Assembly: GCF_001436645.1 (NCBI RefSeq)
Contig: NZ_AYZI01000001.1
Coordinates: 62,001 to 126,000, forward strand
From: Fructilactobacillus florum DSM 22689 = JCM 16035
GTDB lineage: Bacteria; Bacillota; Bacilli; Lactobacillales; Lactobacillaceae
DNA length: 64,000 bases
Reading direction: 5' to 3'
The notes under the pieces are model-generated. The model did no database searches and was not told the DNA's origin. It worked only from the letters and a program-made list of their open reading frames with translations. The position numbers were made by a program, and so were the translations under genes. How positions within the stretch are numbered: the stretch's first letter is position 1; every line of letters starts with the position of its first letter. Below are positions 21,425 to 50,825 of the stretch, piece after piece.

Positions 21425-22774
21425 CTAAGCCGATTTAAACATGCGATTTAAAATAAAACTACTACATAATCCAATTACCAAAAAGGGAATAAAATCTAAT
21501 CCAACTTGATATAAGGGCAATTTTCCAGCTAGTTGATTAATCACTGCAATCGGGGCCCAGCTGGCTAGCTCAGCTGGCAGAGCATGTAATGCATCTAGAA
21601 CCGCTGGAATCAACACTAAGCCGATTGTAATTCGGTACCAACGCGTGCGTTGGCGTAATAATGGTTGAAAAATTCCTAGCAAAATCAAACTAATTGCTAG
21701 GGGGTATAAAAAACTTAGTAACGGAGCCGAATACAAAATAATCTTAGTTAAACCCAAGTTAGCAATTAAAAACGAAATGAACGTCGCTCCCGTTAAAAAT
21801 TTATGGTACCCAATCCGAGGAAAGCGGCGACCCAAATCTTGTGATAATGACGTCAATAAACCAATCGCCGTCGTCAGACAGGCCAGTAGGGTTAAAGCGG
21901 CCAACATGGCAGCTCCCACAACCCCAGTATAATGTCTCATAATTACCGCAAAAGCAGTCCCACCATCAACACTAAGTTTGGTAAATTGTAGGCTACCAGC
22001 CCCCAAAGCAATTAAAAATGTATAGATCAGAGCTTCAAAACCCATGGTCAAACTGCCAACTTTAATTACCGACCACGACCGTTCTTTGGCAGTTTGTCCA
22101 AAAGCCTGTAAAGCAGCAATAATGGTTACTCCAAAACCCAATCCTGCCAGTGCGTCCATGGTGTTATAACCTTCTAAGAAACCATTAATCAACGTAGGCG
22201 CCGCTTTTACTGCTTGGGGAACGATGGGCAGGCGACGCATGTCATCGTATAAAACAAAAGCAATCACAAACAAAATTAACAGTAGAAATAGAAATAACGG
22301 ATTCAAAATTTTCCCAACATTTCTCGTCACGCTTTGTTCATGAAAAGCCAACCACCAAACAGCCAAGAAAAAGAGGAGTGAAAATATTAGCAAAGCCATG
22401 CCATCCCAACCAGCCGGTACAAACGGTGCAATTCCCATGGAAAAAGTTACCGTTGCAGTTCTAGGTGCTGCAATCAACAATCCGAGGGAGGCATGCGTCA
22501 AAACTAGAAAAAGCATCGCGAACCATTTCCCAGCTGGCAATGCCAGATCATACATACTTGCACTTTTAGTAATGCTTAACGCTAGGATCGAACCCAGCGG
22601 AAGTAAAATTGCCGATAACAAAAACCCAATCACCGCTGGCAACCAATTTGGGCCAGCTACTTGACCTAAATGAATCGGGAAAATTAAATTACCCGCCCCA
22701 AAAAACAGACCAAATAGTAATGATGCCAATAACAAATACTGCCTAAAGCTTAACTTACTCGGTAATTTATCCAT
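21425..22774 (-). CDS. brnQ: Branched-chain amino acid permease BrnQ (LIVCS family)
   Basis: Sodium- or proton-coupled import of Ile, Leu and Val. 449 residues with about twelve helices; the N-terminal LFGLFFGAGNLIFPIHLG and the GYNTMDALAGLGFG motif are BrnQ hallmarks. Preceded by a T-box leader with a second T-box-like module next to the start codon, so expression should follow the charging of a branched-chain tRNA. RBS AGGAGGG is six bases before the ATG. Confidence 0.95.
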   Translation of the reverse strand: MDKLPSKLSFRQYLLLASLLFGLFFGAGNLIFPIHLGQVAGPNWLPAVIGFLLSAILLPLGSILALSITKSASMYDLALPAGKWFAMLFLVLTHASLGLLIAAPRTATVTFSMGIAPFVPAGWDGMALLIFSLLFFLAVWWLAFHEQSVTRNVGKILNPLFLFLLLILFVIAFVLYDDMRRLPIVPQAVKAAPTLINGFLEGYNTMDALAGLGFGVTIIAALQAFGQTAKERSWSVIKVGSLTMGFEALIYTFLIALGAGSLQFTKLSVDGGTAFAVIMRHYTGVVGAAMLAALTLLACLTTAIGLLTSLSQDLGRRFPRIGYHKFLTGATFISFLIANLGLTKIILYSAPLLSFLYPLAISLILLGIFQPLLRQRTRWYRITIGLVLIPAVLDALHALPAELASWAPIAVINQLAGKLPLYQVGLDFIPFLVIGLCSSFILNRMFKSA

Positions 22775-23170
22775 GATACCCTCCTGTACAACTAACCAAT
22801 CGCTGCACTGGCCGCCAACAGCGGGGTACCACCAGATTTTCTGATTCTCTCACAAAAATCAGCTCAGTAAGTATCGCTAGCGACGCTTCTATTAAAAAAA
22901 CGTCCAAACTGTCATACACAGTCCAGGACGTTTAAAACGCGTTACCACCTTGAATTTCCAACCAAACGGTCGGCTCAGTAAGTTCGCCGTTGCGTTCGCA
23001 GCGATACTATTGTGCAATAATGGGCACTCCCAACGAACCCTATACTAATCAGCATCGAACCCGTAACTTGCAGCCTACCTTCGTTTTAGCACTTCGGTTT
23101 CCTTGCACCATTACCGGAAACTCTCTAGACGGTTACTAAAACTAATCCTCTGCGCATTGTTTTCTTAATT
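22775..23170 (-). promoter_or_regulatory. T-box leader of brnQ, with a second T-box-like module
   Basis: Read on the minus strand: a Stem I distal region near 23060-23125 (GTTTCC ... GGTGCAAGGAAAC), Stem III (CCGACC / GGTTGG), the T-box AAGGTGGTAACGCG (22951-22938), then a terminator hairpin AAACGTCC / GGACGTTT with a U run (22933-22894). Past the terminator a second set appears: stem CTGATT / AATCAG (22862-22841) and a T-box-like TGGTGGTACCCCGC (about 22834-22821). I could not fix the specifier codon. The second module has no Stem I and no U tract; its GGTACCC could pair with GGGTATC at the brnQ binding site. Confidence 0.85.
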
Positions 23171-23232
23171 TTTAGTTGAAGCCAATTTATAGGATAATTA
23201 AGTTTTTGTCAAGAAAAAATTAAAAATCATTT

Positions 23233-50581: not shown

Positions 50582-50825
50582 AAAAAGACCTCATCACTAG
50601 GGACGAGGTCTTCGCGGTACCACCCAAAATTGCCTATCAACTGATAAGCCAGCTCAGTTTTTGATAACGGTCAAAAGCCGGCGGTCTAGTTAACCACAAC
50701 TTCAGGGTGTTTTTCACTCGAAAACTCAGTTCCGCTCGCACTATCCGAAACTCGCTATCATTTGTTAATCGAACTACTATTCCTGATTAGTCATTTTCAA
50801 AAGCAAGTGTACTTGATTTATTTAT
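50582..50825 (-). promoter_or_regulatory. T-box leader of asnS
   Basis: Minus strand: Stem I distal region (GTTTCGGATAGTGCGAGCGGAAC split over about 50725-50755), canonical T-box GGGTGGTACCGCG (50626-50613), then terminator AAGACCTC / GAGGTCTT with a U run (50612-50582). Several AAC triplets occur in the Stem I part, as needed for Asn, but I could not fix which is the specifier. Confidence 0.92.

Follow-up and report, generated by a model that had tools for sequence, protein, structure and literature searches.

A Fructilactobacillus florum brnQ leader with one T-box Stem I, two antiterminators and a predicted translational second output

T-boxes that combine one Stem I with two antiterminators are known and are common in the family to which Fructilactobacillus florum belongs. 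In 2008 Vitreschak et al. reportedly described partially tandem T-boxes, in which the terminator-antiterminator element is duplicated. A passage of PMC9413887 cites Vitreschak et al. 2008 for double T-boxes. In the relevant passages of PMC7583486, 'partially tandem' T-boxes are mentioned with their modes of action given as unknown, and translational T-boxes form a separate class, a few of them with a long Stem I. According to excerpts of PMC7778990, the translational T-boxes of Actinobacteria were searched for with a class II model, which was also tried on class I matches with a truncated Stem I. Passages of PMC9481103 state that SAM-II/SAM-V tandems act on transcription and then on translation ('bi-mechanism'), and, according to passages of PMC12452182, either transcription or translation may be regulated by the second riboswitch of a tandem.

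We analysed a 64,000-nucleotide stretch of the F. florum genome (the window, in whose coordinates positions are given). The leader of brnQ1, on its minus strand, has two antiterminators behind a single decoding domain and so belongs with the partially tandem T-boxes, although the lack of a second terminator makes it a variant rather than a plain member of that group. It shares with partially tandem T-boxes the single Stem I, the two antiterminators and, presumably, an origin by partial duplication; the leaders of the paralog brnQ2 and of a permease gene in the same genome are of that kind. By contrast, the second unit of brnQ1 (module 2) has no terminator and opposes a predicted SD-sequestrator. 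An antisequestrator with a UGGN bulge set against an SD-masking fold is also the arrangement of the translational T-boxes (ileS, Actinobacteria, class II) in the passages of PMC7583486 and PMC7778990. Unlike those, module 2 belongs to a lactic acid bacterium, where it would give a long-Stem I transcriptional T-box a second output; it has no Stem I of its own, so that, although it may work like a translational T-box, we do not class it with them. The predicted order of action on one gene, transcription at the first unit and translation at the second, resembles that of the SAM-II/SAM-V tandems as portrayed in the PMC9481103 excerpts; however, these consist of two complete metabolite aptamers, whereas brnQ1 has one decoding domain and its ligand is a tRNA. 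Complete sensor-plus-platform units likewise make up the contiguous riboswitches in the PMC12452182 passages, in contrast to brnQ1, where two platforms, predicted to be unlike, share a single Stem I. We found no description of two unlike outputs served by a single Stem I in the relevant passages of PMC7583486, PMC9481103, PMC12452182, PMC7778990, PMC2494555 and PMC9413887, and a literature search over titles and abstract openings, mostly open-access, returned no T-box in which one Stem I has both. The apparent use of a single tRNA-decoding domain for control first of transcription and then of translation looks new.

The Rfam T-box model RF00230 matched the leader at full length (model positions 1–219; 87.7 bits, E = 1e-19), below its gathering score of 93, which only 4 of the 22 T-box matches in the source genome reached. 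This match covers Stem I and module 1 only; module 2 went unreported in the same search of the brnQ leader. One Stem I is followed by two discriminators, each composed of Stem III and an antiterminator, and ACTTACTGAGC occurs in two copies. The specifier position reads GUA in six brnQ1 leaders and AUC in five brnQ2 leaders. Among the 17 of 30 fetched tRNA loci that were scanned, we found a tRNA-Val of the source genome with anticodon UAC and discriminator A, which matches the GUA specifier and UGGU. The promoter-like site is of a kind that the consensus scan expects 0.8 times in shuffles, and its TTGACA and TAAATT hexamers align in all five orthologous leaders. In four genomes (G001, G004, G005 and G007), brnQ2 (AUC, Ile) and brnQ1 (GUA, Val) are tandem genes, and a separate double T-box precedes each; in the source genome the two genes are on different contigs. 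Table 1 lists the features.

Table 1. Features of the brnQ1 locus in window coordinates, with the basis of each assignment
Feature	Positions	Strand	Basis
brnQ1, branched-chain amino acid carrier, 449 aa	21425..22774	-	TIGR00796, 293.6 bits (cut-off 243.4)
SD and start-codon strand of the predicted sequestrator; pairs with 22832-22824 and 22821-22818	22773..22787	-	MFE folds
Module 2 antiterminator/predicted antisequestrator, CUGG-UGGUACC-CCGC-UGUUG-GCGG-CCAG; bulge 22831-22825	22808..22835	-	R1, covariation
Module 2 Stem III, 9 bp, GUGA loop	22841..22862	-	7/9 pairs changed on both sides, six orthologs
Module 2 copy of the linker 3' arm, complementary to 23008-22992	22870..22886	-	Duplex energies, whole-leader MFE
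Terminator 1, intrinsic, predicted; hairpin 22926-22904 and U-tract	22896..22932	-	Consensus scan
Complete T-box: Stem I, Stem II, IIA/B, Stem III, first antiterminator	22921..23166	-	Rfam RF00230
Module 1 discriminator: Stem III and antiterminator; bulge UGGUAAC 22947-22941	22924..22982	-	Model R1
Linker hairpin 5' arm; alternative predicted partners in module 1 or, more stably, module 2	22992..23008	-	Duplex energies, whole-leader MFE
Specifier codon GUA (Val)	23076..23078	-	By eye from the Rfam alignment
Putative sigma-70-type promoter, TTGACA-17-TAAATT	23184..23212	-	Consensus scan

We scored both modules with R1, a covariance model that spans Stem III and the antiterminator and was built from 24 other brnQ leaders; 25 had been prepared and L064 was left out, none is double, and one (L036) probably belongs to the same genus. 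The two best matches in the 64 kb window were module 2 (22871–22808; 50.2 bits, E = 2.4e-10) and module 1 (41.8 bits, E = 3e-8). Module 2 was also the best of 21 R1 matches genome-wide among the 150 of 608 first-look candidates that were scored, and its E value rules out a chance similarity to a T-box discriminator. Across the six brnQ1 leaders, module 2 always outscored module 1 (50.2/41.8, 54.2/33.8, 49.3/33.8, 51.3/35.3, 45.1/37.1 and 48.6/37.1 bits). A first-pass annotation of this DNA had recognized, between 22775 and 22951, a repeated T-box motif, a Stem III-like hairpin and a second T-box-like sequence without Stem I or a U-tract terminator, and had suggested a covariance search of both segments. 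All of these elements are present on the minus strand, among them GGTGGTACC at 22833–22825, and the search recovered both segments. No second Stem I was found before module 2 in the leader, the one upstream of module 1 being common to both. The interval needs narrowing: module 2 proper occupies about 22886–22773, and the upstream part belongs to module 1 and its terminator. The same annotation had called the module possibly degenerate, which its scores and the covariation described below contradict. Terminator 1 is of a kind expected 0.6 times in shuffles by the consensus scan; as isolated pieces, it folds at −18.1 kcal/mol versus −3.0 kcal/mol for the competing antiterminator.

The consensus scan found no terminator-like site between module 2 and brnQ1. 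The longest T-run after module 2 is 2–3 in all six brnQ1 leaders; in the leaders of brnQ2 and G008 the runs are 6–7. With no second terminator found, a plain double transcriptional T-box is not favoured for brnQ1. Module 2 could act at transcription in another way, if its competing hairpin were a weak, Rho-assisted or pause-type terminator and the leader a double transcriptional T-box like its paralogs. Both brnQ2 and other double T-boxes that we found have two terminators, a hairpin noticed by eye in the source leader (22823–22801, with AUUGGUUAGUUG behind it) would be a competitor of antiterminator 2, and the spacing is compatible with a terminator, as other T-boxes among the matches listed fit one before the SD at a similar distance. 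We nevertheless regard transcriptional action of module 2 as unlikely, given the empty scan of the source leader, the short T-runs in every ortholog and MFE folds that put the competing strands on the SD and AUG instead.

These folds are consistent with translational control by module 2. In all six brnQ1 leaders, the RNAfold MFE structure holds the SD (wholly or partly) and the AUG in one long hairpin with antiterminator strands, the distance from the start of the module 2 UGG bulge to the start of the SD being 47–51 bases. The first-pass annotation had noted that GGTACCC can pair with GGGTATC over the SD site; folding of the source leader reproduced this helix and extended it to GUGGUACCC (22832–22824) with GGGUAUCAU (22781–22773) and CUGU (22821–22818) with ACAG (22787–22784). 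Forcing antiterminator 2 cost 10.2–13.7 kcal/mol relative to the MFE, and in silico the predicted antiterminator 2 and SD-sequestrator exclude each other in all six leaders. The pairing probability between SD and antiterminator was 0.64–0.73 in these leaders (0.73 in the source leader) and below 0.001 in all eight genus comparators; it reached at least 0.3 in only one of 54 further brnQ leaders (L076, 0.52). The 54 are 65 of 80 loci (L032–L096) minus 11 without an in-frame SD or antiterminator, and L036 among them is apparently the L118 locus. In the predicted structures the SD is masked by the T-box bulge and the following bases in the source leader and by the 3' antiterminator strand and loop in its relatives; the logic is the same and the pairs differ.

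We compared these folds with shuffled sequences. Pairing of the SD with any base was as high in 44, 18, 22, 10, 15 and 103 of 200 shuffles, with similar results for the comparators, and the SD–antiterminator measure was adopted, and two further shuffles added, after this general measure had come out weak. When the surroundings (linker, spacer and coding bases) were shuffled and the antiterminator and SD core kept, joint pairing of SD and AUG was as strong in 0, 8, 4, 7, 26 and 3 of 200 shuffles, and SD–antiterminator pairing alone was as high in 5, 70, 75, 73, 48 and 7; the observed MFE was equalled or bettered in 0, 77, 14, 63, 99 and 117, and in four of the six leaders it was no better than shuffles. 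Shuffling of the antiterminator itself left joint pairing as strong in 3, 2, 1, 1, 2 and 2 of 200. The antiterminator 3' strands (UCCUU) are inherently anti-SD, so that the lack of a terminator by itself accounts for part of the SD masking and for part of the contrast with the comparators. The sequestrator helix showed no covariation in L113–L117 (0 of 12 pairs with double changes). This, together with the tRNA-binding features kept in module 2, would suit a different role, in which module 2 binds the tRNA end and serves mainly mRNA processing or stability, or acts as a second landing site that boosts antitermination, rather than governing access to the SD. Such a role would leave unexplained the SD–antiterminator pairing that distinguishes the six brnQ1 leaders from the eight genus comparators, and we think it improbable.

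To return to translational control, module 2 is conserved and covaries. We sampled ten genomes of the genus, the source genome included, nine of which had a BrnQ match at E ≤ 1e-60 (16 matches in total). Module 2 was present in all six brnQ1 genes found, so that the non-conservation among relatives that the first-pass annotation had named as refuting did not occur; its UGGUACC bulge and GUGA loop were invariant. Pairing in the module 2 helices was kept in 96.9% of 96 cells over the six orthologs, and 11 of 16 pairs had changed on both sides (7 of 9 in Stem III, 2 of 4 in A1 and 2 of 3 in A2, with 100% of the A1 and A2 cells paired). On none of the five measures did any of 500 shuffles come as high; in slid controls, pairing was 37.5–56.7%. 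The six leaders represent about three lineages (L112; L113–L115; L116–L117), so that events are fewer than cells. An inert remnant of duplication, to which the single discriminator of most other brnQ leaders scanned and the absence from brnQ1 of the terminator that brnQ2 has might point, is very unlikely in view of this strong covariation over long divergence, the invariant motifs and the higher R1 score of module 2 in all six leaders. Conservation, covariation and SD pairing thus support in silico the translational module suggested in the first-pass annotation.

Partial duplication, also suggested there, gains in silico support from the distribution of double leaders. We built a protein tree of 24 sequences, comprising 14 of the 16 genus BrnQ matches (without L120 and L127, 36% identity) and 10 others, with a midpoint root for drawing. 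The six brnQ1 genes formed one clade beside a clade of five brnQ2 genes and G008. All 12 leaders of these two clades were double by R1, each with one Stem I in brnQ1 and brnQ2, and L118 and L126 had one match each. In 80 further brnQ loci, examined up to 650 bases upstream, we found no convincing second antiterminator, and some had none by the scan, in which a score of 7 was needed to see brnQ1 module 2. Second matches scoring at least 7 in L043 and L068 were attributed to chance: the bulge of L043 is not of T-box form, and the match of L068 lies 389 bases further upstream. The simplest reading is a single partial duplication before the brnQ1/brnQ2 split, followed by loss of terminator 2 in brnQ1. 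The brnQ2 leader has a second terminator, and the tree alone fits loss in brnQ1 and gain in brnQ2 alike; loss is our reading. The linker arm and GUGA loop had prompted us to ask whether module 2 might be ancestral. This was rejected: when four brnQ1 leaders were compared pairwise with six single leaders, module 1 had the higher identity in 23 of 24 cases.

Stem III is separated from the IIA/B region by a linker hairpin, the 3' arm of which is present in a second copy in module 2. In the source leader (L112), the predicted duplex of the 5' arm was more stable with module 2 than with module 1 (−18.7 versus −11.0 kcal/mol). The preference was also found in L113 and L114 (−13.5 versus −8.5 kcal/mol) and L115 (−9.7 versus −8.5 kcal/mol), and in none of these four leaders was it equalled in 500 base shuffles. 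It was absent in L116 (117 of 500 shuffles) and L117 (265 of 500), and arm exchange was not significant in five brnQ2 leaders (82–243 of 500). For the arm of L119 (2 of 500 shuffles), module 1 was the stronger partner. The whole-leader MFE of the source sequence contained the long-range linker helix, terminator 1 and the sequestrator together. These folds suggest, as a conjecture, that Stem I may be handed from module 1 to module 2 via the linker arm.

We consider it probable that the brnQ1 leader exerts two-step control by tRNA-Val charging, over transcription at module 1 and over translation at module 2. Stem I would read tRNA-Val through the specifier GUA. During transcription, uncharged tRNA-Val would stabilize antiterminator 1 and let RNA polymerase past terminator 1, where it would otherwise stop. 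On the full-length mRNA, uncharged tRNA-Val would stabilize antiterminator 2 as an antisequestrator, leaving the SD and AUG free; when no uncharged tRNA-Val is at hand, the antiterminator 2 strands would pair with the SD and AUG and turn translation off. Module 2 would in this way provide a second, reversible check after the transcription decision, and one Stem I would reach both modules, perhaps through a switch of the linker 5' arm from its partner in module 1 to that in module 2. That tRNA binds at module 2, that control there is translational and that Stem I reaches both modules is what we infer from predicted structures. A more specific account, in which one decoding domain takes an irreversible transcription decision and is then passed by linker-arm strand exchange to a reversible translational switch that arose by U-tract loss, is offered tentatively, as a possibility that we would not favour as a whole.

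To place this leader among the T-boxes of the family, we scanned 397 genomes drawn from a larger group. A pattern of two successive T-boxes matched in 183 of them and in 24 of 40 genera, some chance matches included. Thirty such loci were fetched: 21 were double with U-tracts before an amino-acid ABC permease-like gene (by eye), 5 were brnQ1 and 4 were unconfirmed as double. Many genomes of the family thus have a double T-box with two U-tracts before a gene that by eye is ABC-type permease-like (L131–L136 and L138–L152). A search for hybrids, defined by a spacing of 95–125 and GGAGG only, found doubles with GGAGG 20–50 bases after module 2 in 31 of the 397 genomes. We fetched 30 of the 32 listed, leaving out the permease leader of the source genome, which has a terminator, and one in G231. 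Only the six brnQ1 leaders had two antiterminators without a T-run of at least 5. Among the other 24, 21 had such a run (3 of these with one confirmed antiterminator), and L195, L205 and L206 look like coding or chance matches rather than T-boxes.

Several further T-boxes came to light. The permease leader of the source genome (L021 450–1250; G000:C49) is a second partially tandem T-box, with two terminators, before a gene for a 445-aa amino-acid permease. Elsewhere in the window, a T-box discriminator (50599–50657, minus strand) with a very short terminator, reaching downstream to 50558, precedes a 464-aa gene that by eye resembles asnS. A single T-box with an R1 score of 51.3 bits and no U-tract (L158; G042:C1:632105–632175, minus strand) stands before a gene for an OppA-like lipoprotein (by eye). 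Its SD lies inside a hairpin whose fold is not below shuffles (z −0.11); L158 is possibly a stand-alone translational T-box in the family. In L184 (G111:C3:435042–435107), a T-box near the SD of an alaS-like gene (by eye) has no T-run of at least 5, and a U-rich stretch is present.

The brnQ1 leader offers a concrete mode of action for a partially tandem T-box, in which the modules would be read out at different steps, and it suggests that, in a lactic acid bacterium, a long Stem I can be coupled to a translational T-box output. With brnQ2 it forms a pair of natural versions of one leader, without and with the second terminator. If the proposed reading is true, loss of the U-tract would make a translational switch of the anti-SD antiterminator strand, a simple route from transcriptional T-boxes.
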